A DNA stretch of 45,967 nucleotides from an uncultured Eubacterium sp. (GTDB lineage Bacteria; Bacillota; Clostridia; Oscillospirales; Acutalibacteraceae). The notes under the pieces are model-generated. The model searched no databases and was not told where the DNA came from. It saw only the letters and a program-made list of their open reading frames with translations. The stretch is from NCBI GenBank assembly GCA_905234995.1, contig CAJOJV010000007.1:1-45967 (forward strand). The letters run 5' to 3'. A program made the translations under genes and the position numbers. Shown here one piece after another: positions 8,390 to 45,967 of this stretch (the stretch's first letter is position 1; every line of letters starts with the position of its first letter).

Positions 8390-10074
8390 TGGCAATTGAT
8401 AACACCCCTGAAATTAAAGAGGAAATCGCTTCTAATTTCATTCACGATTTTATTGATAAGGATTTGGAGGAAGGCGTTTATTCAAGAGTGCAGACCCGCT
8501 TCCCTCCCGAGCCTAACGGCTATCTGCATATCGGCCATGCAAAGGCTATCTGCATTAATTTCGGCGCAAAGGAAAAATACCACGGCATCTGCAATCTGCG
8601 CCTGGACGACACCAACCCCACCAAAGAGGACACGGAATACGTTGAAGCCATTGAAGAGGATATCAAATGGCTTGGCTTTGATTGGGACAACGTTTATTTT
8701 GCATCTGATTATTTTGATTACATTTACGAATGTGCAATCAAGCTTATCAAAAAGGGCAAGGCATTCGTTTGCGATTTAACGCCCGAGCAGCAGAGAGAAT
8801 ACCGCGGCACTCTGACCGAGCCCGGCAAGGAAAGCCCTTACCGCAACCGCTCAATTGAGGAAAACCTTGATTTATTTGAAAGAATGACCAAGGGCGAATT
8901 TGAGGCAGGCAGCAAGGTGCTGCGCGCAAAGATTGATATGAGCTCCTCAAACCTCAATATGCGCGACCCGATTATTTACCGCATTATGTATGCTCACCAC
9001 CACAGAACGGGCGACAAATGGTGCGTTTACCCGATGTACGATTTTGCACACCCGCTTTCCGACGCGTGCGAAAACGTCACTCACTCCCTTTGCTCGCTTG
9101 AATTTGAAAACCACCGCCCGCTTTACGACTGGGTGGTTAATGAATGTGTTGAGGGCGAAAAGCCGCGCCAGATTGAATTTGCAAGGCTTAACCTCAATTA
9201 CACCCTGACCAGCAAGCGCAAGTGCCTGAAGCTCGTTCAGGACGGCATCGTTGACGGCTGGAACGACCCGAGAATGGCAACCATCAGCGGTATGCGCCGC
9301 AGGGTTTACCCCGCCGAGGCAATCCGCGATTTCTGCGAAAGAATCGGCGTTTCAAAGGCATACAGCGTTGTTGATTTCGCACTGCTTGAAAGCTGTGTGA
9401 GAGATAATCTTAACCGCAATTCACGCCGCGCAATGGCTGTGCTGGACCCGATTAAGCTTATTATTGACAATTACCCCGAGGATAAAACCGAGGAGCTTGA
9501 GGTTGAATACCATCCCGACCATCCCGAATACGGCACGCGCAAAATCACCTTCGGCAAGGAGCTGCTTATTGAGCGCGACGACTTTATGATTGAACCCATT
9601 AAGAAATACCGCAGGCTTTACATCGGCAACGAGGTTAGGCTTTACAAGGCATATTTCGTTACCTGCACGGGCTATGACACGGATGATGACGGCAACGTTA
9701 CCGCAGTTCACTGCACTTACGACCCCGAAACCTTCGGCGGCGACAGCCCCGACGGCAGAAAGGTTAAGGGCACAATCCACTGGGTTAACGCCAAGGACAA
9801 CGCACCCGCTGAGGTTAGGCTTTACGAAAGACTTTTCGACGTGCCGAACCCGAGCGACGAGGACGGCGTTTCCTCCTTTGAGGACAACCTTAACCCCAAT
9901 TCACTGAAAACCATTACCGCATACTGCGAAAAGAGCCTTGGCGACGCAAAGCCCGGCGACAAATTCCAGTTTATGCGCGACGGCTATTTCTGCGTTGATA
10001 TCACATCAACGGATGATAAGCTGATTTTCAACCGCACCGTGCAGCTGAGGGACAGCTTTAATAAAAAGCAATAA
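8389..10074 (+). CDS. glnS: Glutaminyl-tRNA synthetase
   Basis: This class I synthetase charges tRNA-Gln directly with glutamine. Motifs are [16 protein letters not shown] (residues 38-53) and a KMSKS-like TSKRK (near residue 275), followed by the beta-barrel anticodon-binding part. The 561-residue length is normal for bacterial GlnRS. AAGGAG at 8375-8380 precedes the ATG, which shares its A with the gltX stop. Many Bacillota lack GlnRS and use Glu-tRNA-Gln amidotransferase, so its presence next to GluRS is notable. The pair would give balanced supply of both synthetases. Confidence 0.96.
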
Positions 10075-33791: not shown

Positions 33792-34619
33792 ATGCCAAAA
33801 TGCAAAACGATTGCAATATGCAATCAGAAAGGCGGTGTCGGAAAGACGACCACCGCCGTTAATCTCGGTGTAGGTTTAGCAAGGCAAGGAAAAAAGGTAC
33901 TCCTTGTGGATGCTGATCCGCAGGGAGATTTAACAATCAGTCTTGGATGGCAGGACAACGACAGTTTGGAGATTACTCTTGCAGACAAAATCAATTCCGT
34001 CATTACCGACAAGGAGTTTGATAAGACAGCAGGTATTCTGCATCACGAAGAAGGCGTTGACCTTATACCATCAAACCTTGAATTATCAAGTCTTGAAATT
34101 CGACTTGTAAACGCTATGAGCAGAGAGGTTGCATTAAAGGAATATCTTAAAAGTATTAAAAACAATTATGATTATATCCTTATTGACTGTATGCCCTCGC
34201 TCAGTATGATTACGATTAATGCCCTTGCTGCTGCGGACAGCGTTATTATTCCTGTTCAGGCACATTATTTATCCGCAAAAGGTATGACGCAGCTTGTTCA
34301 GACAGTTTCAAAGGTAAAAAGACAGATAAACCGCAATTTGAAAATTGACGGTATCCTGTTGACGCTTGTTGACGAGCGAACTAATCTCGCTAAAAGCACA
34401 CGCAAAGCCGTTGTTGAGGGATACGGTAAATATATTAAAGTCTTTAAGACTTATATACCTATTGCTATAAAAGCGGCAGAAACAACGACAAAAGGCAAAA
34501 GCATATTTGCTTATGAGCCGAGCAGTAAAGTCGCAAAGGCTTATGAAAACTTAACAAAGGAGGTAATTGATAATGGCGAAAAGCAACTCAACCGACTTCA
34601 CTCTGAACGGGTTAGATGA
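33792..34619 (+). CDS. parA: ParA-family partition ATPase
   Basis: The product has 275 residues with the deviant Walker A box KGGVGKTTTAVN near the N-terminus, VDADPQGDLT, and a LIDCMPSLSMI Walker B region. It resembles Soj/ParA chromosomal and plasmid partition ATPases. In ICEs it aids stability of the excised circular form. An AGGAG site lies 11 bases before the ATG. It overlaps parB by 47 bases, so the two are coupled. It lacks an N-terminal DNA-binding extension, so it is of the short, type Ib or Soj-like kind. Confidence 0.93.
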   Translation: MPKCKTIAICNQKGGVGKTTTAVNLGVGLARQGKKVLLVDADPQGDLTISLGWQDNDSLEITLADKINSVITDKEFDKTAGILHHEEGVDLIPSNLELSSLEIRLVNAMSREVALKEYLKSIKNNYDYILIDCMPSLSMITINALAAADSVIIPVQAHYLSAKGMTQLVQTVSKVKRQINRNLKIDGILLTLVDERTNLAKSTRKAVVEGYGKYIKVFKTYIPIAIKAAETTTKGKSIFAYEPSSKVAKAYENLTKEVIDNGEKQLNRLHSERVR

Positions 34620-35520
34620 TTTGTTTTCAACGCAGGAAGAAAGAGATAACGGCAGTATTCCCGAAATCAGAGATATTGACATATCGCTGATTGATGATTT
34701 CCCCGACCATCCGTTTAAGGTCGCGGAGAATGAGGAGTTATATGAACTCGCTGACAGCATAAAGGAACAAGGAGTATTAATCCCTGCTATTGTTCGCCCG
34801 AAAGAAAACGGCAGATATGAAATGATTGCCGGACACAGAAGAAAGCGAGCAAGCGAGCTTGCTGAGATTGACACCTTGAGATGTATCGTTTCTGATTTAG
34901 ACGATGATGCTGCCACAATCATTATGGTAGATACAAACCTTCGTCAGCGACAGCAGATATTGCCGAGCGAAAAAGCAAAGGCGTACAAAATGAGAAATGA
35001 TGCTCTAAAACATCAAGGAAAACGCACCGATTTGACTTCGGCAACACCGTTGCACAAGTCCGAAAATAAAACAACAAGAGAAATTATGGCTGATGAAATC
35101 GGCGAGAGTTATGAGCAGATTCGCAAATATATCCGCCTCAATGAACTTGTCCCTGAATTGCTTGAATATGTTGATGAGGGTAAAATCGGACTTCGCCCCG
35201 CAGTTGAAATGTCTTATCTTGATGAGGACGCACAGCGCGATATTGTTGATATGATTGATGATAGCGAGTGCTTCCCGTCACACGCACAGACCATTCGTAT
35301 GCGAAAGGCATTTGAGCAAGGCGAATTAACACGCGATGATGTTATCGCAATTATGAACGAGGAAAAGCCAAATCAAGCTTCAAAGATAACAATCCGTAAA
35401 GATGATATAAGCAAATATATCCCAAAATCGGTAAAGCCCGAACAAACGCAGGAATTTATTTGCAAGGCGGTCAAACACTACGCCGCATATCTTGAACGAA
35501 AAAAAGAGCAAGTCAGATAG
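34573..35520 (+). CDS. parB: ParB-family partition protein
   Basis: The product has 315 residues. The ParB/Srx nuclease-like domain lies at about residues 30-125, with the CTP-binding box reading IAGHRRKRASELA. A helix-turn-helix region follows (TTREIMADEIGESYEQIRKYIRL). It loads at parS-like sites and works with ParA. The start at 34573 is set by AAGGAGG at 34557-34563, within parA; a TTG at 34567 lies too close to that site. Such ParB proteins are standard at one end of Clostridia ICEs. I did not identify a parS site. Confidence 0.92.
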   Translation: MAKSNSTDFTLNGLDDLFSTQEERDNGSIPEIRDIDISLIDDFPDHPFKVAENEELYELADSIKEQGVLIPAIVRPKENGRYEMIAGHRRKRASELAEIDTLRCIVSDLDDDAATIIMVDTNLRQRQQILPSEKAKAYKMRNDALKHQGKRTDLTSATPLHKSENKTTREIMADEIGESYEQIRKYIRLNELVPELLEYVDEGKIGLRPAVEMSYLDEDAQRDIVDMIDDSECFPSHAQTIRMRKAFEQGELTRDDVIAIMNEEKPNQASKITIRKDDISKYIPKSVKPEQTQEFICKAVKHYAAYLERKKEQVR

Positions 35521-35524
35521 CAGG

Positions 35525-35548
35525 AGGAGTATGTTTTTTCATACTCCC
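35525..35548 (+). terminator. Hairpin after parB
   Basis: GGAGTATG and CATACTCC arms surround a T-rich loop and are followed by CCTTTCTT. The T-run is weak. Confidence 0.55.
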
Positions 35549-35655
35549 CTTTCTTACAATCTAACCCCTGATTACTAACAATACTTACCGAAATAAGAAT
35601 TGATTAGTATTCAGCAACACTCTTAAAGAGATATAAAGGAGGCGATGCCTATGAT

Positions 35656-35685
35656 TTGACTAAAGAATCGCATCTTTGATATAAT
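35656..35685 (+). promoter_or_regulatory. Promoter for the Thr-rich lipoprotein gene
   Basis: TTGACT (35656-35661), an 18-base spacer and TATAAT (35680-35685) lie 39 bases ahead of the start. It shows that the surface cluster can be transcribed apart from parAB. Confidence 0.65.
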
Positions 35686-35724
35686 ATTACAGAATTGGTA
35701 ATATATGGTTGAGGAGGCGATGAT

Positions 35725-36273
35725 ATGAAGAAACTCGCAGTGTTGGCAGTATTGATCGCTGTATTGGCGTTTTCAGCCTGCAGTAATGCTTCAGTTATTA
35801 ACGAAGAGGATGTTTCTTTTTCGGTTAGTAATACAACCGTTGAAAGTATAAGTGATGCTGATGTAACGGAAAGTGCAGATAATACAACTACCGAACCGTC
35901 AACAACAGAAATTTCAACAACACAGGCAGAAACAACGACTAAAGCAGCAAAGCAAACCACCGCCAAACAAGAAACCACAACGCAAAAGCAAACTACCACA
36001 GCAAAGGAAACTACTACAAAAGCGGAAACGACTACCGCACCAAGCACCTGCACAAATAACGGCAACCACAGCCAAGCCTGCGGGAATATGGGAAAGTGGT
36101 TTAATTCAAAAAGCGAGGTTAAAGCCTATGCAGAAAAGGAAATGAAATATTGGGCTGACTTGGAGGAAAGCGGACAGATTACCCGCGAGGAATACTACCA
36201 AAAATGCCCGTCAGGTTACGAATGTTGGTCTTGCGCTTATTGCGGCAGGTGGACAGGAAATTTCAAATACTAA
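35725..36273 (+). CDS. Thr-rich lipoprotein with Cys-containing C-terminal domain
   Basis: The 182-residue product has an N-terminal signal with a lipobox-like FSAC (Cys19). A long Thr/Lys/Glu/Gln-rich linker at about residues 50-108 is the sort that forms an extended stalk across the cell wall. The small C-terminal domain has Cys-containing motifs (STC, QAC, KCPSGYECWSCAYCGRW); the CxxC pair suggests a metal site or disulfides. I recognise no named family for that domain. A terminator follows, so it is a single-gene unit next to the adhesin gene. Confidence 0.75.
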   Translation: MKKLAVLAVLIAVLAFSACSNASVINEEDVSFSVSNTTVESISDADVTESADNTTTEPSTTEISTTQAETTTKAAKQTTAKQETTTQKQTTTAKETTTKAETTTAPSTCTNNGNHSQACGNMGKWFNSKSEVKAYAEKEMKYWADLEESGQITREEYYQKCPSGYECWSCAYCGRWTGNFKY

Positions 36274-36294
36274 ATTTAATACTGAACTGAATTT

Positions 36295-36337
36295 GAGGGA
36301 AGATTAATCGCTATGAAAAATCTTCCCTCTTTTTTTG
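36295..36337 (+). terminator. Terminator between lipoprotein and adhesin genes
   Basis: GAGGGAAGATT and AATCTTCCCTC arms (36295-36305 / 36319-36329) are followed by eight T. The adhesin start is 20 bases further on, so the hairpin could also act as an attenuator for it. Confidence 0.9.
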
Positions 36338-36356
36338 TTTCAGGGAAAGGAGGCTT

Positions 36357-39300
36357 ATGAAAAAAGCCAAAACAATCTGCAGAAAAACGCTGGCGTTTTT
36401 TCTTTCGGTGCTGATGATTCTTTCAGTATTGCCACTGACCGTTTACGCTGAAGAAAATTTGGGCGAGATAAGCGGTATCAGTGATATTGATATTGACGTT
36501 TCACGGCATTACGGTCATCAGTTGCATACAACGGATGTAAACGGAACTACCTACCCTATGTTCTGTATTGAGTATAACACAACAAGCCCATCCTCATCGT
36601 ATCTGGAAGCGAGGAAAGCGGGTGCAAGTTCAGATGTTATCACGGCGGCTAAATGGATCTTTGCCGGCTATTATTTAGAGCATGGCAACTCTGTTGACTG
36701 GAAAGATATGGCGATGTGTCAGAAAAAGGTTTGGAGTATCTTGGGCAACAATACCACTTGGGATTTTTCAGACAGCGATTATGACGACTGGATTGAAAAT
36801 GCCGAGAGAAATATGGCAAATCTTGATACAAAGCCTTCGTTTAACAACTCAAATGTCGGCACAATCACTGCAGGAACAGCTAAGACAATAACTGACTCCA
36901 ACGGTGTCTTTAAGGACTATCCCGCTTTTACGGTTAATAAAAACGGTATCAAAATGACACATGGAGCAAATTCAAACCAACTGACGATTACGGTTGATAA
37001 AACCTGCACTACAACCTCGTTCAGAATCAATAACGGCGATTTTTATAAGAATGATACAGGTGATGATGACGAGCTTCTGCTCTTTTATCCTTACGGAAGT
37101 GATAACTACCAGAAACTTGTATATTCCGCATATTATGATCCTGTCAGTTTCGCTCTGAACGGAAATGTTGAGGTGCTTGGCTCTGCCAAACTAAAAAAGA
37201 CTTCCGAGGACGGTCAGGTCGGAGGAATTAACTTTACCGTTACGGGTGCAAATTATTCAAAAACGGTATCCACCGACAGTAACGGCGAATGGCAGCTTGA
37301 TTATCTCGTTCCCGGTAATTACACCGTTACGGAAGAAAGCATTGACCGTTATGTAACGCCGAGCAGTAAAACAATTACTGTTAAATCAGGCGGAATTGTT
37401 AGCACATCGTTTAATAACATCCTTAAAAAATTCTGCGTTGAAACTACAAAAGAGGATGCAGAAAAAGGACGGGCGCAGGGCGATGCTTCGCTTGCAGGCG
37501 CGACTTACGGTATCTATGATAACGGCAGGCTCATTGACACCTATACCACAGATGAGAACGGCAAATTCACCACCTCGTATTATGTCTGCGGCGACCATTG
37601 GACAATCAAGGAAATCAGTCCGAGCGAGGGTTATCTGCTTGATAATACGGTTTATGATGTCGGCGCACAGGCACGGCTATATGCCGTTGAATACAACACA
37701 ACGAGCAATACGGTCAAAGAGCAGGTCATCAAGGGTAACATCTCAATTATCAAGCATAGCGATGACGGCTCAACGCAGATTGAAACGCCAGAGCCCGAAG
37801 CAGAGTTTCAGGTATATCTTAAATCCGCAGGCTCATACGCAAATGCAAATGCAGATGAAAGAGATGTGCTTGATTGTAACGAGGACGGCTACGCTAAATC
37901 AAAGGATTTACCCTACGGCATTTATACCGTTCATCAGACAAAGGGCGTTGAAGGTTCCGAGTTCATGCAGGACTTCGATGTGTATATTGCCGAGAACGGC
38001 AATACCTACAAATACCTGATTAACAATGCTCCGTTCAAAGCATATCTCAAAATCACAAAGGTTGACAGAGAAACGGGAAAGACCGTTCCCTACGCAGGCG
38101 CAGGCTTTGAAATCTATGATTCAAGCGGCAATAAGGTATCGCAGACCTTCACTTACCCGAAAAAGACAACCATCAGCACCTATTACACTAATGCGGACGG
38201 TTATCTTATTACCCCTGAAAAGCTTGACTATGGCAAGAATTACACGCTCGTTGAGGTGCAGGCTCCGTATGGCTATGTGCTTGACAGTACGCCTATCAAG
38301 TTTGATGTAACGAGAGATAATTCCGAGATTGAGGATGCTTTAACCATTATTAAGGTTAAGCGTGATAATGTCGCTCAAAAAGGTGTTATTGAAGTAACAA
38401 AATCAGGCGAGGTATTCGCAAGTGTTGAGAACACGAACAATATCTATACTCCTGTTTATGAGGTGCAAAATCTTAAAGGCGCTGTGTATCAGGTATTTGC
38501 CGCAGAGAATATTAAGACTCCTGACGGAACACTCCGCTATCAGCAGGGCGAACAGGTTGACGAAATCACTACGGGCAATGATGGTATCGCTAAAACAAAG
38601 CAGCTTTATCTTGGCAAGTATACCGTAGTTGAAAAGACTGCACCTGTTAATTTTGTCAATGCAAATCAGCAGTATGATGTTGAGCTTGTCTATGCAGGAC
38701 AGAATGTCGCTGTAACAAGCACGGCACTCTCCGTTTACAACGAAAGACAGAAGGTTACAACTTCACTTTCAAAGGTTATGCAGACAGATGAAACCTACAA
38801 AATTGGAATGAACGATGAAATTCTTTCCGTTCAGTTCGGTATTTATGCTGCCGAAGAAATAAAGGCGGCAGACGGCTCGGTTATCCCTGCCGATGGTTTA
38901 ATCACACTTGCTAATTGCGATAAGGACGGCAACATTGCCTTCGATTGCGACCTGCCTATCGGCTTCAAGTGGTACGCAAAGGAAATTGCTACCGATAAGC
39001 ACTATATCCTCTCCGATGAACAGCATTTCTTTGATACGGAATATGCAGGACAGGAAACGGCAGTTATTGACATTAAGCTCAATGACGGCGAACCTATAGC
39101 CAACGACCTTATTTACGGTAAGGTAACGGGCTACAAGATTGACCGTGAAACCGAAAAGCCGATTAAAGATGTTGTTTTCGGTATCTTTAAGGGCGATGAA
39201 ACCGAATACACCGAAAAGACGGCGATTACAACCGCCACCACCGATGAAAACGGCGTATTTGAATTTATCAATATACCATTCGGTGCTTGGATTATTCGTG

Positions 39301-39551
39301 AGTTGAAGCCTGCTGAGAACTATCTTGAAAACACGGATTTGTATCACATTGATGTGGATCGTAATGAAAAAGCAATCGAGATAACCGTGTTTAATGACAG
39401 AATACCTGAAACGGTAACGGAAATCCCCAAAACAGGCGATGACAGTAATTACCGAACGCTCATTACAATCATCAGTGGAAGCGTTTTCGCTGCACTCTGT
39501 TTGGCGTATTACCTTATCCGTAAGAAGAAAAAAGATGAGGGAGGAGATTAA
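36357..39551 (+). CDS. Thioester- and Cna-B/SpaA-like repeat surface adhesin with IPKTG sorting signal
   Basis: The product has 1064 residues. A signal peptide covers residues 1-31. The next 150 residues look like a thioester domain: Cys70 in MFCIEYN and Gln122 in CQKKVW fit the Cys and Gln that form the internal thioester in Gram-positive covalent adhesins. About seven Cna-B/prealbumin-like beta modules follow, each with a V/I-x-K-T/V strand, a GxxFxIY core and a final E residue in KEIS, VEVQ, VEKT, KEIA or REL; these suit isopeptide bonds. The C-terminus has EIPKTGDD, a membrane span and RKKKKDEGGD, a sortase signal. It resembles ICE-encoded VaFE/SpaA proteins. No sortase is in the window. 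AAAGGAGG precedes the ATG. Confidence 0.85.
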   Translation: MKKAKTICRKTLAFFLSVLMILSVLPLTVYAEENLGEISGISDIDIDVSRHYGHQLHTTDVNGTTYPMFCIEYNTTSPSSSYLEARKAGASSDVITAAKWIFAGYYLEHGNSVDWKDMAMCQKKVWSILGNNTTWDFSDSDYDDWIENAERNMANLDTKPSFNNSNVGTITAGTAKTITDSNGVFKDYPAFTVNKNGIKMTHGANSNQLTITVDKTCTTTSFRINNGDFYKNDTGDDDELLLFYPYGSDNYQKLVYSAYYDPVSFALNGNVEVLGSAKLKKTSEDGQVGGINFTVTGANYSKTVSTDSNGEWQLDYLVPGNYTVTEESIDRYVTPSSKTITVKSGGIVSTSFNNILKKFCVETTKEDAEKGRAQGDASLAGATYGIYDNGRLIDTYTTDENGKFTTSYYVCGDHWTIKEISPSEGYLLDNTVYDVGAQARLYAVEYNTTSNTVKEQVIKGNISIIKHSDDGSTQIETPEPEAEFQVYLKSAGSYANANADERDVLDCNEDGYAKSKDLPYGIYTVHQTKGVEGSEFMQDFDVYIAENGNTYKYLINNAPFKAYLKITKVDRETGKTVPYAGAGFEIYDSSGNKVSQTFTYPKKTTISTYYTNADGYLITPEKLDYGKNYTLVEVQAPYGYVLDSTPIKFDVTRDNSEIEDALTIIKVKRDNVAQKGVIEVTKSGEVFASVENTNNIYTPVYEVQNLKGAVYQVFAAENIKTPDGTLRYQQGEQVDEITTGNDGIAKTKQLYLGKYTVVEKTAPVNFVNANQQYDVELVYAGQNVAVTSTALSVYNERQKVTTSLSKVMQTDETYKIGMNDEILSVQFGIYAAEEIKAADGSVIPADGLITLANCDKDGNIAFDCDLPIGFKWYAKEIATDKHYILSDEQHFFDTEYAGQETAVIDIKLNDGEPIANDLIYGKVTGYKIDRETEKPIKDVVFGIFKGDETEYTEKTAITTATTDENGVFEFINIPFGAWIIRELKPAENYLENTDLYHIDVDRNEKAIEITVFNDRIPETVTEIPKTGDDSNYRTLITIISGSVFAALCLAYYLIRKKKKDEGGD

Positions 39552-39553
39552 CA

Positions 39554-39646
39554 ATGACTGCAAAGGCAATAATCGGGATTGCTGTTGTTGCACTTGTAAT
39601 CGTAGCAATCGTTGTTATGCAGCTGAAAAATAAAAAACGCGATTAG
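39554..39646 (+). CDS. Single-span membrane microprotein (30 residues)
   Basis: The ATG lies 3 bases after the adhesin stop, and its GGAGG site sits inside the end of the adhesin gene, so it is likely translated by coupling. The product is one hydrophobic helix (IIGIAVVALVIVAIVVM) with a basic tail KNKKRD, giving a predicted N-out, C-in orientation. I know no family for it. It may assist adhesin anchoring or the membrane protein encoded 15 bases later. Confidence 0.6.
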   Translation: MTAKAIIGIAVVALVIVAIVVMQLKNKKRD

Positions 39647-39661
39647 CAGAAAGGCTTATAT

Positions 39662-40555
39662 ATGAACAACACAGAAAACACTTATACCGTCATTGATTTC
39701 AAGGTTAAAGGATATGATAAAAGGCTTTACCGCAAGAAAAACGCAGACGAGTTTTGTTACCTGACAAAGAAAGGGTTTAAGAATTTTTCGGAAGTTTCTG
39801 AAAACCCTCCCGATGTTATCGGCGATGTGTTTATCAGGCACAGTAAGCATAGGAAAAGCAATAAGCAAGCTGATGTAACAGGAACTATCATCCTTCCGTA
39901 TTCTAACCGCTCTGGTAAAACAGGCAATGAATATCCGCTGCGTCAATTTAAGAAGCAGTGGCGCAGAACTATCGGTTACGCAGAGCTTGACAATCATCAG
40001 TTTGTAAGGCTTGTAAAATACGATGTCAGATTTTTGCTTATTGTTCTTTTAATCCTGCTTGCCTTGATTCCATTCTTTCTAAAATCCGGCTCGGATATTT
40101 CGCCAATAAGTATTAACACGGGCGAAACCATAACCGAAGAGTACGAAGCGCCGGAGGAAACCCCAATTTGCTACTACGAACCGTTTGAAGAAGTAACTAC
40201 CCTTTCTGCTGATAATCCCGAAATATTCTTAAAGAATGTTTCGTCAAATGCGGAAACATATTTCGTTTCGTATGAAATTTATATTAACGGAAATCCGTTA
40301 AAGGATGAAAGCGGAAACAACTTTTCAACGGGTGCATTACCACCAGATAGGCAAGTTAACATTAACCTTTGGAATCAACTTGATGCTGGCAATTATCAGC
40401 TTGAAGTTAAAGCTACTGATTATGATTATAGCATTTTAACCGAGCTTAATGAGAACAAAGATAAATACAGCGAGAAAGAATACCAATCGCTGTTGAACGA
40501 GGCAACAATGCCCGTTCATCACACCTTAAGTACAACACTAATTATTTCAAAATAA
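39662..40555 (+). CDS. Single-pass membrane protein of unknown function
   Basis: The product has 297 residues. A basic cytoplasmic N-terminal domain (residues 1-120, with many Lys and Arg) precedes one membrane helix (about residues 124-140). An extracellular beta-type domain of 150 residues follows (NVSSNAETYFVSYEIYINGNPL, GNYQLEVKAT), which looks like an immunoglobulin-like or carbohydrate-binding-like sandwich. The large cytoplasmic domain ahead of a single span is reminiscent of anchored assembly or signalling factors. No catalytic motif is seen. It lies between the microprotein and a secreted LRR protein in an apparent operon. Confidence 0.7.
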   Translation: MNNTENTYTVIDFKVKGYDKRLYRKKNADEFCYLTKKGFKNFSEVSENPPDVIGDVFIRHSKHRKSNKQADVTGTIILPYSNRSGKTGNEYPLRQFKKQWRRTIGYAELDNHQFVRLVKYDVRFLLIVLLILLALIPFFLKSGSDISPISINTGETITEEYEAPEETPICYYEPFEEVTTLSADNPEIFLKNVSSNAETYFVSYEIYINGNPLKDESGNNFSTGALPPDRQVNINLWNQLDAGNYQLEVKATDYDYSILTELNENKDKYSEKEYQSLLNEATMPVHHTLSTTLIISK

Positions 40556-40570
40556 GAAAGGATTTTTACT

Positions 40571-42238
40571 ATGAAAAATAAAACCAATTCAAGAGTTATT
40601 GCGATTGTACTCGCAATGCTTACTATTATCTCATCCGCAATCCCTGCTTTTGCTGCAGACATGGAAATTTACACTTATGACGGTAACGATATTATCAGTT
40701 CCGTTAATGTAACAGCCACTATTGCAGACGGTTCGGATGTGTACGATCCTGAAAACCCCGATGCCGGCGATGACGGCTTCGTTAACGGTAAGATTCAGGT
40801 AGGTGTACCCACATCAATCACAATTAACGGTACGGCTGATGCAGACGGTTATTATGTCGGCTCTGCATCAGGCAAGGTCAAGGGAAACATTTCAGGCGCT
40901 ACTGTAATCAGTGTTGTCCCCGACAGCGAAGTAACGCTTCAGGCTCAAGGCAAAACAGATGTAACTGCACCTATCGAGCAGGACTATACTCAGTTCGTCG
41001 TTTCAACTTCTGAATATTCAGGCGCAAAAGTCAACAAATATGTCACGCCGGAATTCAATGACAATGCTGTTTTTGATGTAACAATTAAGACAAAGGATCT
41101 CTCGGCAGGTACTTGGTCAGGTGCATTCAACTATAATATCTCTGTTGTTAATACAACTGTTGCTTCGCTCGGAAACAGAGTAACTTCATGGAATGTCTCT
41201 GCAACAGACGAAGACAATGTTTGGATGTCATACTATCAGGCAAACACCAGACAGGCAACCGCCCCCACAAGAGGCGGCACAACCATTGAGAAATACGAAG
41301 ATGGTACTGTCGTTATTTCGGGAACAGGCAATATGGAAGATTCCGTAAACAAGCATTTCTTCGATCTTGATGCAATGACCAAGCAGCTCAATATTCTCAT
41401 CTGGGATTATTTAGAAGAGAATCTCTCTGAAGATGAATATAGTGCAATCACTGCCATTGTTCCCGAAGGCACACAGACTTGGTATTACACTGCAGCGCGT
41501 GTGCTCAATTCCAATCTTTCAGACTATACTACTGCAAGCAGTATTGTAAGGAAGTTCAGCGAGGCAGAAGACTATGCAATGCGCAGAGTATCTGCCAACG
41601 ACTATATGTTATACGTTCCCAAGAGAGTGATTGTTATGGATGGTGTAACCAACATTTCAGAAAGCGCATTCAACAGTTGTACATTTCTGACCGAGGTTGA
41701 CCTTGGAAACACGATTAAATCAATCGAAAATTATGCGTTTACCAACTGCTACAACATTGAAGGAATTATAATTCCTGATGGCTGTGAAAAAATCGGAGAT
41801 GCATTTGGAGTAACACATAAAATCGATGTGTTAAACATTCCGGCAAGCGTAAAAGAACTTGCCGGTTCCGTGGCTTTTGCCTATAAGAAGCTGGAGATTG
41901 ATCCTGCAAACCCGTACTATTTCCTTGAAGACGGCGTTATTTATACCAAAGATGGAAAGACTCTTTACGGATTAACCAAAGACTCGTCAAGCGACTTGGT
42001 TATTCGTGAAGGCGTTGAAACCATCAATAACGGTGTGTTCCAGAAGAAGATGAATTCTCTTACTCTGCCGTCAACGCTGAAAGAAATGAGTTATGGGGTA
42101 TTTGGTAACTACTCAAATCTTGAAGTTATCTGTAAATCTCAAAGGGCTTATGATATCATGATGGATCTTATTGCGGCAAAAGAGAACACTTCAATGGCGT
42201 TCAAAGGAACAGTAACATTATCGACTGATGAACGATAA
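40571..42238 (+). CDS. Secreted protein with TasA-like beta domain and BspA-type LRRs
   Basis: The product has 555 residues. A signal peptide ends at AFA (residues 26-28). Residues 30-200 form a beta-rich domain that recalls surface-layer or camelysin/TasA-like modules (TVTLQAQG-type strands, ending LSAGTWSGAFNYNISV). Residues 350-540 carry BspA-type LRRs (ITNISESAFNSCTFLTEVDLGNTI, IKSIENYAFTNCYNIEGIIIP). There is no cell-wall anchor, so it may be released or bound to the adhesin or to the membrane protein upstream. The function is inferred as adhesion or mating-partner contact. AAGAAAGGA precedes the ATG. A hairpin follows at 42266. Confidence 0.75.
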   Translation: MKNKTNSRVIAIVLAMLTIISSAIPAFAADMEIYTYDGNDIISSVNVTATIADGSDVYDPENPDAGDDGFVNGKIQVGVPTSITINGTADADGYYVGSASGKVKGNISGATVISVVPDSEVTLQAQGKTDVTAPIEQDYTQFVVSTSEYSGAKVNKYVTPEFNDNAVFDVTIKTKDLSAGTWSGAFNYNISVVNTTVASLGNRVTSWNVSATDEDNVWMSYYQANTRQATAPTRGGTTIEKYEDGTVVISGTGNMEDSVNKHFFDLDAMTKQLNILIWDYLEENLSEDEYSAITAIVPEGTQTWYYTAARVLNSNLSDYTTASSIVRKFSEAEDYAMRRVSANDYMLYVPKRVIVMDGVTNISESAFNSCTFLTEVDLGNTIKSIENYAFTNCYNIEGIIIPDGCEKIGDAFGVTHKIDVLNIPASVKELAGSVAFAYKKLEIDPANPYYFLEDGVIYTKDGKTLYGLTKDSSSDLVIREGVETINNGVFQKKMNSLTLPSTLKEMSYGVFGNYSNLEVICKSQRAYDIMMDLIAAKENTSMAFKGTVTLSTDER

Positions 42239-42265
42239 TCATTATAACTGAACAAAAATTATAGG

Positions 42266-42288
42266 GCGGTCAGGTTTAACCTGGCCGC
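42266..42288 (+). other. Hairpin between the LRR gene and the ICE protein run
   Basis: GCGGTCAGG and CCTGGCCGC pair over 9 bp (one G-T pair) around a 5-base loop. No T-run follows. It lies 6 bases before the next ATG and may act on translation of the 42295 gene or on mRNA stability. Confidence 0.5.
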
Positions 42289-42294
42289 TTAACT

Positions 42295-42900
42295 ATGAAG
42301 GAAGTGATTGCATTGAACAACGATATAATTACCATTGACGGCTATACTGTTATTCACTCTTTTTTTGTCGGCGAGAAAAATGTAATTGTTGCTGAAAACC
42401 TGAAAGCAGATTATCGTTTTCTTTGCGCCTATCTTGAAGAAAACGAGGTGTTCAGTCAGTTTACCGATTGCGCTTTAAGCAACGATTATCTTGAGATAAT
42501 GACGCTCTACTGCGACAGGGCAAAGGAACAGGTAACTAATTGCAAGGAGCAAAGCCTCGGCGACATAACGGTTATAACGCCGGATATGTGCAGAAAGCTG
42601 AACGAAGGAGAAACCTACAAAGGCAAGGTTGTAGCGTTAAAGCCGGAGAGCCTGCGCCGTGAATATGAAAATGCAGAAAATCAGTTATATTATGCCGTAA
42701 GCGGCAACGGCCTCAACCCTAAAGGCTTGGGGACGAAGATTTACGCATATAATATTGCGACAAAAGCACACCACTATATCCGCAATTACGATGTTCTCGG
42801 CGTTGTGGATAAGGACAAACTGCCCGAATGGGCAAAGCCTAAACTTACCAAAATAAAAAAGGAAATCAAGGAAAAGGAGGAAAGACGAAATGAGCGATAA
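42295..42900 (+). CDS. ICE-associated hypothetical protein (about 200 residues)
   Basis: I recognise no named family. The N-terminal half is a mixed fold with CAYLEENEVFSQF. The C-terminal half includes an ENQLYYAVSGNGLNPKGLGTKIYAYNIATKAHHYIRNYDVLGVV segment of a kind seen in other Clostridia ICE proteins, ending in a charged Lys/Glu helix. ATG at 42295 has no ribosome site. A TTG at 42313, with AAGGAAGTG ahead of it, would remove six residues and may be the true start. It overlaps the next gene by 11 bases, in the style of a dense ICE operon. Confidence 0.65.
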   Translation: MKEVIALNNDIITIDGYTVIHSFFVGEKNVIVAENLKADYRFLCAYLEENEVFSQFTDCALSNDYLEIMTLYCDRAKEQVTNCKEQSLGDITVITPDMCRKLNEGETYKGKVVALKPESLRREYENAENQLYYAVSGNGLNPKGLGTKIYAYNIATKAHHYIRNYDVLGVVDKDKLPEWAKPKLTKIKKEIKEKEERRNER

Positions 42901-43177
42901 AATCGTTAATCAGGGATATGTCATTGAACAGGAACTCCATATCAGTAACGCTGTTATCGTTCTCGGCGTTAATCCCAACCTTGTGGACAAGGAACACACT
43001 ACACCTTATGTCACTTGGGAAACCGATAAAGACAAAAAGGACTTTTATTGGGGACATTATTTCAAGGACAGATATTCTGCCGAGCGTGACCTTGTAAAAA
43101 GAGGTAACGAAAAGGTTCGCTATTTTGATCGTATTACCGGTTTTCATAAACAGCAGACGGAGCGTGATGCCCGATGA
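42890..43177 (+). CDS. Small ICE protein, paralogue A (95 residues)
   Basis: The product has 95 residues, with a strong AAGGAGG ribosome site inside the upstream gene. It has no signal or membrane helix. It shares its layout with the next gene product: L-x-I-x-N-V/A near the start, a GxxxN turn, an FYW/FAWxxxF segment, and YSA-x-x-D-x-V-x-R near the end. The pair looks like a tandem duplication. It ends in an ATGA overlap with its paralogue. Function is unknown; small Trp/Tyr-rich ICE proteins often accompany DNA-processing genes. Confidence 0.65.
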   Translation: MSDKIVNQGYVIEQELHISNAVIVLGVNPNLVDKEHTTPYVTWETDKDKKDFYWGHYFKDRYSAERDLVKRGNEKVRYFDRITGFHKQQTERDAR

Positions 43178-43440
43178 AAAAACGATATTTCAGATATAAG
43201 ATTATTCAGACATTGCCAATCGGCAATGTCACTTTTTATATCGGCTACAAGAAGAATGACCGTTATAAGTACGCTACCTTTTTCAAGCGTGATAATAACA
43301 CTGATTTCGCTTGGATACGCTTTTTCAACGACTTATACTCTGCCCAAAAGGATATAGTTGACCGAGCGTACAGAGAAATACCAAACCTTGATTTTAATCT
43401 TGAAATGAAGGAGAAAACGATATATGGCGACAAAACCTAA
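43174..43440 (+). CDS. Small ICE protein, paralogue B (88 residues)
   Basis: The product has 88 residues and is similar in pattern to the preceding gene product: LPIGNVTFYIGY, FAWIRFFNDLYSAQKDIVDR and a final NLD correspond to LHISNAVIVLGV, FYWGHYFKDRYSAERDLVKR and RYFD. The duplication has kept the YSA..D.V.R element best, which suggests that it matters. Start and stop overlap neighbours on both sides (ATGA upstream, 17 bases downstream). Function is unknown. Confidence 0.65.
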   Translation: MKKRYFRYKIIQTLPIGNVTFYIGYKKNDRYKYATFFKRDNNTDFAWIRFFNDLYSAQKDIVDRAYREIPNLDFNLEMKEKTIYGDKT

Positions 43441-43666
43441 ACTTGCAAAAGGCAAGGTTATGGAAAAACTGCGTGACGCAGGATACAAGGATGAAAAGCA
43501 ACTGGCTTCGCTTGATGAATCGCTAATCTTTAACATAGATTTTACAAGAGAGGAACTCATTGTTGCATATCAAATCAGAGATGCAACAAAGAAAGGTGTG
43601 CTGTATTCCTATCTCATCAATCCGAATGTTGACCTTTCTCCGCCGAAGAAGGAGAAAAAGAAATGA
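43424..43666 (+). CDS. Small basic ICE protein (80 residues)
   Basis: The product has 80 residues and is highly charged. Its N-terminal AKGKVMEKLRDAGYKDEKQLASL looks like a short helix-hairpin, and it ends in PPKKEKKK. It overlaps the previous gene by 17 bases and the next by 4 (ATGA). It has no recognised family. Its basic tail could bind nucleic acid. The ribosome site GAAGGAG supports the ATG. Confidence 0.6.
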   Translation: MATKPKLAKGKVMEKLRDAGYKDEKQLASLDESLIFNIDFTREELIVAYQIRDATKKGVLYSYLINPNVDLSPPKKEKKK

Positions 43667-44613
43667 GCAATTACACAATAAGACCGTTTACCAAAGCAGA
43701 ACAGCTTTATGCGTATCGGCAAAGTCAGCAAATTGCCGGACAAACGGGCTTTTACGGATATTATCACGGAGATTTCGGAAAAAGAGGCGATGATTACAAT
43801 GCCGTTTGGATTAACAACAATGCAAACGAAATGACAGATGATTTTCGTAATGATTTAGCAGATGTTATGAAAACTCTCGGCGAAAACGGTCAACCGCTTT
43901 TTGACAGAAACGCTATGCAAGAGTATTGCAGAACAAACCCCGACTCTCATTTTAAGGGAGCTTTCGGTTATGAGTACGGCTTTCGTCTGAAAACGGATAA
44001 GTATTCATACATTATCCGTATGGAACCGTTTTGCTTGGGTGATTATGACTTTTATATATTCGCATACGATACTCGTTTGCTTGATAACCATATAAAAAAC
44101 GCATCCAAAGGTATTAACTTTATCACATCAGCTTACAAGCATCTGTTTAATCTTGAGGACGGCGATTCTATCATTGTTCAATACGCTGACGGCGAAAGAA
44201 AAGTAAAGGAGTGCCGATTTATTGATGAATACCATACGCAGATTGACAAAATGATATACCACAACTGTCAGTTTGCGGAAATCATTGAAAGAAACGGTGC
44301 AACTGTAATACCATATCGAAAATCTTTGCCTTATAAAGCATTTCACTACAATGCCGAAAGAAAAAAGATTGAAATCGCGGCAAAGGGTGAGGATAAAGTT
44401 AAAGTGGTTGACGCTCCTTCAAATGATGATGAAAAGAACAGAGAATATGTTAATGAACGAAATAAAGAATTCGGAGCAGATAAAAAGCAGGTTGCAGCGA
44501 TGATGGTCGGAAGTATTCTCGGATGGGATGATAAAGGTGCTGACCCGAGAAACTATGACGATGACGGTAAGTTTATAAAAAACGCAAAACACAAGGACAC
44601 TCCGGAAAGGTAG
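43663..44613 (+). CDS. Conserved ICE protein of about 316 residues
   Basis: I recognise the arrangement but no official name. It opens with TIRPFTKAEQLYAYRQSQQIAGQTGFYGYYHGDFG, followed by a mixed alpha/beta core (YSYIIRMEPFCLGDYDFYIFAYDTRLLDNHI) and a charged C-terminal tail. Close relatives sit in Clostridia conjugative elements just ahead of the large ArdC/helicase-type gene, as here. Its role in transfer or host take-over is unknown. It overlaps the 43424 gene by ATGA and ends 7 bases before the giant gene. Confidence 0.7.
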   Translation: MSNYTIRPFTKAEQLYAYRQSQQIAGQTGFYGYYHGDFGKRGDDYNAVWINNNANEMTDDFRNDLADVMKTLGENGQPLFDRNAMQEYCRTNPDSHFKGAFGYEYGFRLKTDKYSYIIRMEPFCLGDYDFYIFAYDTRLLDNHIKNASKGINFITSAYKHLFNLEDGDSIIVQYADGERKVKECRFIDEYHTQIDKMIYHNCQFAEIIERNGATVIPYRKSLPYKAFHYNAERKKIEIAAKGEDKVKVVDAPSNDDEKNREYVNERNKEFGADKKQVAAMMVGSILGWDDKGADPRNYDDDGKFIKNAKHKDTPER

Positions 44614-44620
44614 GTGCGTA

Positions 44621-45967
44621 ATGCCGAATAAATATGATTTTATCAAATTTACATTTGACGATACCTCAAAGGAAATTACAAAATCGCCTGAAAACTGGCA
44701 GTCCTTTCTTTTTTCGGCTTGCAGGAACTTCAAACTGCCGTTTGACGAGCAGGTTTTAATCTTCGCTCAAAGACCGGATGCAACTGCAGTCCTTGAATTT
44801 GACAAGTGGAACAACCGCTTCGGCAGATGGGTTAATCGTGGTGCAAAGGGTATTGCTGTTTTTGATGATGTCAGCGGAACGAATCAAAGGCTAAAATACT
44901 ACTTTGATATTTCCGATACGCACGAAACGGAATTTGCAAAGCCTGTTCCGATGTGGGAATATAACGCCGGTTACGAATCAGAGGTTATTGCAACCCTTGA
45001 AGATAACTTCGGTGAGCTTTCAAAGAAAGATGATATTGTTGACGCAGTTATGTCCGCCGCAGAAAATATGGCTGATGATAATCTGCAAGACTATACATCC
45101 GAGCTTATCAATTACGCTCAGAAAGGCAGTTTCCTTGAGGACTTGGGAGATGACGGTGTAGAAACAGCTTTCAGAAACCTTGTGAAAAACAGCGTAGCGT
45201 TTATGATGCTTACTCGTCTTGGCTTTGAGCCGAGGGAATACTTTGACCGAGAAGATTTTGTTTCTGTTGTTGATTTTAACACTCCCGATTCTCTCGCTGT
45301 GCTTGGTGACGCAACAAGCGATATTGCCGAAATGGGACTGAATGAAATAAGCAAAACTGTGATTTCTCTGCAAAAGGAAAATCGCACATTTGCAGAAAAT
45401 GAAAAGTCCGTTTATACTGAAACCGAAATAAAAAACGAAAGGGGTGCTGAATATGACACAGCCCATCAGTTACACAGCAGTAGGCGGAGTAATGCTTCCG
45501 AACCTGTTGCTGCCACAGAACAAGACGATTCATTTCGGGCGTTACGCAGAGGCTCACAGGGAGTTTCTGAAGAAAAACCACAAGCCGTATTATACGAGCC
45601 TGAAGATGCAATGCAAGCTCGACGAGCATCTGCAGGAGGTTCAGGAGAGAGCCGAACAGATGGAAGAAATGCTGATGAAGAAGTTATCGGCACAGGAGGG
45701 CTTGACGGAGCAGATGAAAGCTTCGGATATGATGATATGGGTACAGAGGATGAACAACCTGAAGCAGAGAGTTCAGGAGATAGTTATGAACGAAGTGATT
45801 TATCAGAGGTAAGCGAAGAATTACCGCCGTTTACGGATGAAGATAAAATTCTGTATATGCTTCAAAATCCTAATGACGATTTGGCGCACCGAAAGGAATT
45901 TTTGGTACAGCGTTGGAGCGAATTAAGGAATACTGATGAAAAAGGAAGATATATCTCAACCGTTTAC
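44621..45967 (+). CDS. N-terminal part of a giant ICE protein (ArdC/helicase/methylase-type), truncated by the window
   Basis: The frame is open for all 449 codons to the last base. The first 120 residues (RNFKLPFDEQVLIFAQRPDATAV, FDKWNNRFGRWVNRGAKGIAVFDD) match the start of the multi-domain proteins that in Clostridia ICEs carry ArdC-like, DNA methylase and SNF2-type helicase domains. Those later domains would lie outside this window, so the call rests on the N-terminus. Residues about 278-397 are low-complexity (Glu, Ser, Gly, Asp and Arg). In that stretch a second frame encodes a TnpV-like protein. After it, ILYMLQNPNDDLAHRKEFL resumes ordered sequence. Confidence 0.75.
   Translation, partial: MPNKYDFIKFTFDDTSKEITKSPENWQSFLFSACRNFKLPFDEQVLIFAQRPDATAVLEFDKWNNRFGRWVNRGAKGIAVFDDVSGTNQRLKYYFDISDTHETEFAKPVPMWEYNAGYESEVIATLEDNFGELSKKDDIVDAVMSAAENMADDNLQDYTSELINYAQKGSFLEDLGDDGVETAFRNLVKNSVAFMMLTRLGFEPREYFDREDFVSVVDFNTPDSLAVLGDATSDIAEMGLNEISKTVISLQKENRTFAENEKSVYTETEIKNERGAEYDTAHQLHSSRRSNASEPVAATEQDDSFRALRRGSQGVSEEKPQAVLYEPEDAMQARRASAGGSGESRTDGRNADEEVIGTGGLDGADESFGYDDMGTEDEQPEAESSGDSYERSDLSEVSEELPPFTDEDKILYMLQNPNDDLAHRKEFLVQRWSELRNTDEKGRYISTVY
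45453..45812 (+). CDS. TnpV-like protein encoded in an overlapping frame
   Basis: This 119-residue ORF lies wholly within the giant ICE gene, in its +1 frame. The ATG at 45453 has a Shine-Dalgarno (AAAGGGG) 8 bases upstream. The product fits the TnpV pattern known from Tn4451-type transposons: LPNLLLPQNKTIHFGRYAEAHREFLKKN, then SLKMQCKLDEHLQEVQERAEQ, and at the end LTEQMKASDMMIWVQRMNNLKQRVQEIVMNEVIY. The enclosing frame shows low-complexity sequence here. An upstream GTG at 45444 is less likely. Its function in the element is unknown. The family call is from recollection of the motif. Confidence 0.75.
   Translation: MTQPISYTAVGGVMLPNLLLPQNKTIHFGRYAEAHREFLKKNHKPYYTSLKMQCKLDEHLQEVQERAEQMEEMLMKKLSAQEGLTEQMKASDMMIWVQRMNNLKQRVQEIVMNEVIYQR

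Follow-up and report, generated by a model that had tools for sequence, protein, structure and literature searches.

Evidence for a conserved overlapping gene pair: tnpV in the +1 frame of a giant gene of putative antirestriction type

The window analyzed here, which makes up an entire contig (C7; 45,967 bases) in a 2.04-Mb draft genome of an uncultured Eubacterium sp., ends within the first part of a presumably large gene that carries a complete tnpV gene in its +1 frame. From comparison of sequences, the two very probably form a conserved overlapping gene pair, in which a giant gene of polyvalent antirestriction type contains an internally initiated tnpV. Both frames are open and are kept, the start codon and the Shine-Dalgarno (SD) sequence of tnpV are conserved in most loci, and there is selection on the inner protein.

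The nested tnpV and the outer protein

The features of the window that bear on the pair are as follows.

33792..44613, plus strand: upstream context, with ParA, ParB, a SpaA-domain protein, an LRR protein, and small ORFs (Pfam)
44621..45967, plus strand: 449-aa N-terminal part of the outer ORF, with no stop before the contig ends
44621..45388, plus strand: mostly ordered N-terminal domain, outer residues 1 to 256 (AlphaFold2 pLDDT; upstream dN/dS, 0.125)
45389..45835, plus strand: predicted disordered linker, outer residues 257 to 405, spanning the entire overlap (AlphaFold2 pLDDT under 50)
45437..45444, plus strand: SD sequence GAAAGGGG of tnpV, 8 nt before the ATG; in the outer frame, Glu273-Arg274 and the start of Gly275
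45453..45812, plus strand: nested tnpV (119 aa) in the +1 frame of the outer gene; begins with an ATG at 45453 and ends with a stop at 45810-45812

The earlier note had claimed that two long frames are open over the same 360 bases, that the inner one has its own ATG and a well-spaced ribosome site, and that its product is TnpV-like, and each of these points was borne out. The whole inner ORF (45453-45812) lies within the outer one (44621-45967), the overlap corresponding to outer residues 278 to 398, and GAAAGGGG stands 8 nt before the ATG. Against the Pfam family TnpV (PF14198; curated cut-off, 27 bits), the inner ORF scored 120.4 bits (4.5e-35) over model positions 2 to 111 of 111 and is a member by score over the full model. 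The contig ends 155 bases past the tnpV stop, and the outer gene is cut there. Two further TnpV matches were present in the same genome (G000), one stand-alone (C30:61529-61855) and one covering model positions 31 to 111 only (C65:9295-9537).

In three close relatives of the outer ORF (identity, 73 to 76% over 449 aa), the open frames span 3,099, 3,278, and 810 aa, the last of which runs to the end of its fetched DNA, and the open frames of outer homologues are often 2,000 to 3,300 aa long. A query of 1,400 residues from the downstream part of the giant protein of a relative gave just a 115-residue match elsewhere in the assembly of the window. In the AlphaFold2 model of the outer protein (29 natural sequences), pLDDT is mostly high over residues 1 to 256 (one block of ten at 64) and under 50 over residues 257 to 405, and helices follow at residues 407 to 448, in line with the claim that the outer frame is of low complexity over just the overlap and ordered around it. 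The top Foldseek match of this model in the PDB was ArdC of R388 (6i89; E = 7.9e-3, probability 1.00), a weak match (TM 0.26/0.38, rmsd 7.9), and the outer profile gave no match when searched against PDB sequences. Searches of each frame against protein families, which the earlier note had proposed, returned PF14198 for the inner frame and, for the outer frame, the Pfam family ArdcN in only 1 of 29 members (E = 0.0097).

Several effector domains in one polypeptide were found in three homologues (L198, L199, and L191), which between them carry MutS_I, LPD25, Eco57I/N6_Mtase, ResIII/SNF2, and Helicase_C domains (Pfam); the window contig ends before that part. A DarB-like antirestriction PHROG was matched at 1,599 bits in L198, the one homologue scanned against PHROGs. 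These matches, together with the weak N-terminal match to ArdC, suggest that the outer homologues are giant polyvalent, ArdC-like/DarB-like proteins of antirestriction type. They resemble the polyvalent ArdC-N proteins described by Iyer et al. 2017 (PMC5512222) in having a putatively ArdC-like N-terminus and MutS_I, LPD, methyltransferase, and SNF2 domains and in their probable location on conjugative elements; the words "TnpV," "overlapping," and "overlap" are absent from the main text of that paper by word search. The giant protein would probably protect incoming DNA of the element on entry to a new cell.

The gene content of the region upstream of the outer ORF (33792 to 44613) probably marks the beginning of a conjugative or mobile element, and the order ParA, ParB, SpaA, small ORFs, and giant frame was also found in Monoglobus (NZ_OY725736.1). 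The SpaA-domain protein (36357-39548; seven matched stretches) lies upstream of the giant gene, as it does in the Monoglobus element, and is perhaps an adhesin of the element.

Spread and descent of the nesting

Nesting of tnpV in the identical +1 phase was found in 222 fetched loci, a count that includes places fetched twice, and in 202 loci distinct by sequence after identical sequences were removed. The overlap with a large mobile-element gene is real, as had been claimed, and its recurrence in many gut and other Firmicutes suggests that the two proteins have occupied the same DNA over a long period. Nested loci came from Clostridia, from Holdemania (Erysipelotrichia), from Cohnella (Bacilli), and from plasmid and viral records, and their hosts also include Blautia, Faecalicatena, Mediterraneibacter, Caproiciproducens, and Christensenella.

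Among 148 related genomes, the outer ORF protein found matches in 28, and a TnpV family search of as many relatives was positive in 90. In the first set of loci, comprising these relatives and plasmid and phage records, TnpV lay within the outer stretch in 44 loci, every one in phase +1. Fourteen loci were dropped before this count, namely six repeats of places already fetched (L198, L199, and L206 to L209), an outer match near a contig end (L052), a broken outer fragment without TnpV (L053), stand-alone TnpVs (L106, L123, and L167), outer homologues without TnpV (L196 and L197), and a locus of Ruminococcus albus plasmid pRUMAL02 (L195). In this last locus, a diverged, approximately full-length TnpV-like frame (L195:2724-3077) lies in the same phase inside a giant SNF2 gene; it scored 20 bits with our own profile and matched nothing in Pfam, and it was left uncounted as nested.

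A first scan of public genome contigs with the outer protein gave no relative, and a second scan with alignment A2 gave matches. Among named bacterial genomes, 76 of the best 80 of 575 outer matches were nested. The pattern held in advance to speak against the overlap, an inner frame often broken while the outer one is conserved, was therefore not what these homologues have. All 76 nested loci have an ATG with a purine-rich SD-like sequence, and in all 76 (41 of 44 in the first set) the outer frame extends 500 aa or more beyond TnpV, or as far as the fetched DNA goes; in L042 and L205, it ends 64 and 278 aa after TnpV, respectively. The four non-nested matches comprise one that ends too soon (L325), two with an IS110-type insertion (L348 and L355), and one with a rearranged tnpV (L350). 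The IS110-type transposases (Pfam) follow directly on the outer N-terminal part (L348:5006-6208; L355:4960-5646, minus strand); tnpV and the rest of the giant continue after the insert in L348, and the contig ends within the insert in L355. Possibly the two insertions share a target site near the tnpV ribosome-binding region. In L350 (4760-5337), about 14 initial codons of the nested tnpV remain ahead of a second, different full TnpV, perhaps an inserted element with its own tnpV at its end.

Viral records gave 40 outer matches, of which 14 were nested, 5 were too short, and 21 were without TnpV, all of the latter having outer frames under 480 aa. The TnpV query gave 19 viral matches; 5 were nested, and four of these lay on contigs that the outer query had also found. 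An outer match was present in 97 of 98 further loci; 83 of these were nested, 12 had no TnpV (10 with frames under 480 aa), and 2 were labelled "after," one of them being cut by the contig end (L381) and the other having an outer frame that stops inside tnpV (L372).

A census without preselection for TnpV covered 291 genomes drawn from the class and gave 51 outer matches of at least 150 bits. A PF14198 match was found just downstream and in phase +1 for 45 of the 51, among the TnpV matches listed, and 3 more (L427, L428, and L430) were nested by our own profile. The remainder were a partial, in-phase TnpV at the end of a contig (G207), a long frame without TnpV (G222:C68, or L431), and one match whose sequence was not fetched (G163:C5). 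Conversely, 45 of the 150 TnpV matches listed in the 291 genomes lay at an outer N-terminus. TnpV is not needed by the giant everywhere, because some long outer homologues are without it (L431, L404, and E. faecalis L197 and L061, the last two having no open inner frame). TnpV also persists where the outer frame is broken, as in L348, in G200, which is one of the 45 and has an outer frame that stops inside tnpV, and in L510, where TnpV remains in a decayed giant gene.

Distances between outer N-termini agreed closely with those between TnpVs (Mantel r, 0.874 over 131 loci, a value reached in 0 of 999 permutations), which indicates that the outer gene and its nested TnpV were inherited together. 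Nested and stand-alone rows were interleaved in TnpV trees, with at least 8, 13, and 17 changes in three trees, and none of the 200 bootstrap trees made for each had just one change. In approximately unbiased (AU) tests, one split between the two kinds was not rejected with 37 nested and 46 stand-alone rows (P = 0.059) and rejected with 62 nested and 56 stand-alone rows, three long-branch rows being omitted (P = 3e-28); the larger tree has 113 alignment columns only and unsettled bootstraps, and the decayed giant L510 is scored in it as stand-alone. Strongly supported sister pairs of a stand-alone with a nested TnpV were L506/L425, L262/L044, L139/L216+L219, and L151/L228. A remnant of the outer gene was found beside 1 of 12 stand-alone TnpVs checked (L510) and beside none of the other 11.

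Because phase and place are shared, these data argue for one origin of the nesting, with several later escapes. How the pair arose can be told in two ways, each compatible with a conserved overlap. A stand-alone tnpV may have come first, the giant having formed when an upstream ArdC-like gene was read through tnpV in the other frame into a downstream gene; the free TnpVs close to nested ones would then be later escapes or re-captures. We regard this history as a serious possibility that falls a little short of probable. The inner frame is structured and constrained, and the outer segment is disordered and loose; in overprinting, the loose frame usually marks the younger one. Nor do stand-alone genes carry a trace of escape in the old frame, since the stand-alone TnpVs nearest nested ones had no fewer stops there (Spearman 0.009, P = 0.92). 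Against it, nested TnpVs are the more diverse (5% quantile of pairwise identity, 0.19 versus 0.31 for stand-alone TnpVs), and rooting the trees at the midpoint places nested rows to either side of the root, although a midpoint is no real root; one side held nested rows only in one tree, and the two sides held 2 and 54 stand-alone rows in a second. As the two kinds are interleaved in the TnpV trees, transposon TnpVs may be escapees from nested ones. That TnpV was born by overprinting inside the giant antirestriction gene, with the free-standing transposon TnpVs as its repeated escapees, we consider rather unlikely; if true, it would be a case of a gene family sourced and exported from a second reading frame.

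Selection on the two frames and initiation of tnpV

The earlier note had proposed a comparison of codon-position rates in both frames. At positions 1/2/3 of the outer codons, the four closest loci differ by 0.105/0.074/0.318 upstream, 0.218/0.117/0.068 in the overlap, and 0.173/0.085/0.265 downstream. Over 37 disjoint pairs, drawn from 126 loci after removal of repeated places, the corresponding values were 0.083/0.060/0.266, 0.182/0.079/0.060, and 0.145/0.110/0.312 (an earlier run with 40 pairs from 139 loci, some of them duplicates, gave nearly the same result). The rates thus reverse in the overlap, where they take the inner-frame pattern, and revert downstream, so that the outer pattern is seen on either side. 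In the same 37 pairs, dN/dS was 0.182 for the inner frame, 0.125 for the outer frame upstream, 0.211 for the outer frame downstream, and, by naive count, 1.73 for the outer frame in the overlap. A count that takes the overlap into account, made in 10 close pairs (80 to 97% identity), gave an omega of 0.227 (0.154 to 0.306) for the inner and 1.75 (1.13 to 2.78) for the outer frame. By these comparisons, the inner protein sets the substitution pattern in the overlap and is the better conserved frame. Outer amino acid changes in the overlap fell into the same, similar, and different classes 13, 24, and 177 times, respectively, versus 18.4, 22.0, and 173.6 expected, without preference for conservative changes. 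With this lack of preference and a dN/dS of 1.73 to 1.75, the outer amino acid sequence in the overlap may hardly matter.

The outer frame itself is kept open. Inner four-fold sites without risk of an outer stop change at 0.169, compared with 0.280 upstream under the same condition (ratio, 0.60 [0.51 to 0.70]; 37 pairs), which argues that the outer frame constrains inner silent sites too. The frame corresponding to the outer one was open in all 44 nested loci that make up the first set, compared with 3 of 126 stand-alone TnpV genes; in a second stand-alone set it was open in 1 of 60, that one being the decayed giant L510. When the synonymous codons of the window tnpV were shuffled, the outer frame stayed open in 1 of 300 trials, and with codons drawn from stand-alone usage it was open in 0 of 300. 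It is accordingly very unlikely that only TnpV is real, with a giant that starts downstream and an outer frame open by accident over tnpV. The little outer amino acid constraint in the overlap would fit such a reading, as would the gene table of NZ_OY725736.1, which gives TnpV and then an SNF2 protein that begins about 1,030 codons past the start of the conserved outer domain. Yet that outer N-terminal domain is conserved (dN/dS, 0.125) and is joined to the downstream parts in one open frame in 76 of 76 loci, and neither the slowed inner silent sites nor the rarity of an open frame in stand-alone TnpVs (3 of 126) agrees with openness by accident.

Start codons of tnpV among the 202 distinct loci, chosen automatically, were ATG in 190, TTG in 5, and GTG in 2, with none in 5, and an SD-like sequence was most often found 8 nt before the start (116 of 202). 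In alignment A4, made up of the window and 28 of 32 outer representatives (29 outer N-termini), E273 and R274 are the only invariant residues after position 235; one of the four omitted representatives, L229, has no Glu-Arg at the SD. Over all distinct loci, Glu-Arg was present at the SD site in 157 of 202. The Arg codon at this site was AGG in 156 of the 157, against a background of 13.2% of 2,939 other Arg codons, and the Glu codon was GAA in 153 (background, 57.2% of 3,666). The other 45 loci have no Glu-Arg at the site or no start by the rule used; among 40 of these, SD-like sequences written in different outer codons are common and are weak in the most divergent loci. The ribosome site of tnpV therefore appears, from codon choice, to leave a mark in the outer protein sequence. 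The same data lead us to reject, as highly improbable, production of TnpV as a frameshift fusion to the outer N-terminus; although the inner frame is open for some codons before the ATG in many loci, internal initiation is favored by the 190 ATGs, the 8-nt spacing, and the bias of the SD codons.

Gene-annotation programs normally disallow overlaps of this kind, which would favor a real outer gene with a TnpV frame that is chance or a decaying relic, but we reject this reading with near certainty, given the inner dN/dS of 0.18, the codon-position pattern that follows the inner frame, and the ATG in 190 of 202 loci. The claim of the earlier note that a new or acquired gene is tolerated in a linker stands for the disordered linker and falls for the novelty: recent acquisition or birth of TnpV in this one element has the linker alone in its favor, which such an overlap would need anyway, and is practically excluded by the same phase and place in 202 distinct loci of several classes, by the Mantel r of 0.874, and by the inner gene in 76 of the best 80 outer homologues.

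For the conserved overlapping pair, we propose that ribosomes starting at 44621 would read across the overlap and yield a giant protein with an ArdC-like N-terminus, a disordered linker, and methyltransferase and SNF2-type helicase parts downstream. Other ribosomes would start independently on the same mRNA at the SD-ATG (45437-45455), yielding the small helical TnpV, and both proteins might share a role in transfer or establishment. Persistence of the overlap would come at low cost to the giant, since the outer segment would need only to be an open, flexible linker.

Known systems and significance

TnpV is a separate ORF next in number to the large serine recombinase in Tn6104 and a separate ORF elsewhere on the same element in Tn6105 and Tn6106, as described in PMC3158075, where an Xis-like or excision role of Tn4451 TnpV is cited as a postulate; fold searches gave no convincing match in support of such a role. 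The window tnpV is like those of Tn4451 and Tn6104 to Tn6106 in belonging to the same family by curated score and in lying on a probable Firmicutes mobile element. Unlike the separate ORFs of Tn6104 to Tn6106 (PMC3158075), it occupies the +1 frame within another gene. The free-standing Tn4451-type arrangement is thus not that of the window gene; this limits the name "transposon gene" and not the homology to TnpV, because a free-standing position is no feature of the Pfam model.

The earlier note was aware of no published overlap of this sort, and no description was found in the literature searched, which omits most subscription-journal papers and preprints. Few long nested genes with good support are known from bacteria, and such examples are generally antisense and limited to a handful of species. 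In PMC3533173, ardD is reported to be nested antisense inside tniA of one transposon, Tn5053; tnpV shares with it the nesting in a mobile-element gene and the link to antirestriction and differs in being on the same strand, in phase +1, and in 202 distinct loci. In E. coli O157:H7, pop (in ompA) and ano (in ECs2385) are antisense overlapping genes with expression data, according to PMC7103648 and PMC5960689. They are likewise protein genes within or almost within another bacterial gene, whereas tnpV is on the same strand, has wide comparative support, and is known here from sequence alone.

Some 340 to 360 nt long, the nested tnpV shares its strand with the outer gene, is inherited, and can be examined by codon statistics in about 200 natural copies, and it points to a structured protein over a disordered linker as a route by which overlaps may persist. 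It also exposes an annotation problem. For the Monoglobus plasmid (L191, NZ_OY725736.1; 12848-13180 and 15097-19665), the nested TnpV is retained in the gene table, and the giant is made to begin about 1,030 codons too late. In Cohnella (L190, NZ_CP051681.1), the table keeps TnpV (9247-9810), and the giant is absent from the table, which omits pseudogenes; an antisense ORF is annotated over the 5' part of the giant.

In the AlphaFold2 model of TnpV (42 sequences; mean pLDDT, 78.6), helices come after two short strands. Because fold searches of the TnpV models against solved structures gave no convincing match and nothing at an E value of 0.001, any role assigned to TnpV is a guess; our best one, tentative and well short of probable, is that it serves as an accessory or regulatory partner produced alongside the antirestriction protein. 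Beside two stand-alone TnpVs (L139:618-1691 and L092:260-1810), we observed a C5 DNA methylase and a type I restriction subunit-like protein, two cases only and too few to judge. Because TnpV is frequent within an antirestriction-type gene, the association suggests a role in the same step as the giant, that is, in protection or establishment of incoming DNA. An orphan transposon family would thereby be linked to antirestriction and conjugative transfer, which would give the TnpV family its first testable function.
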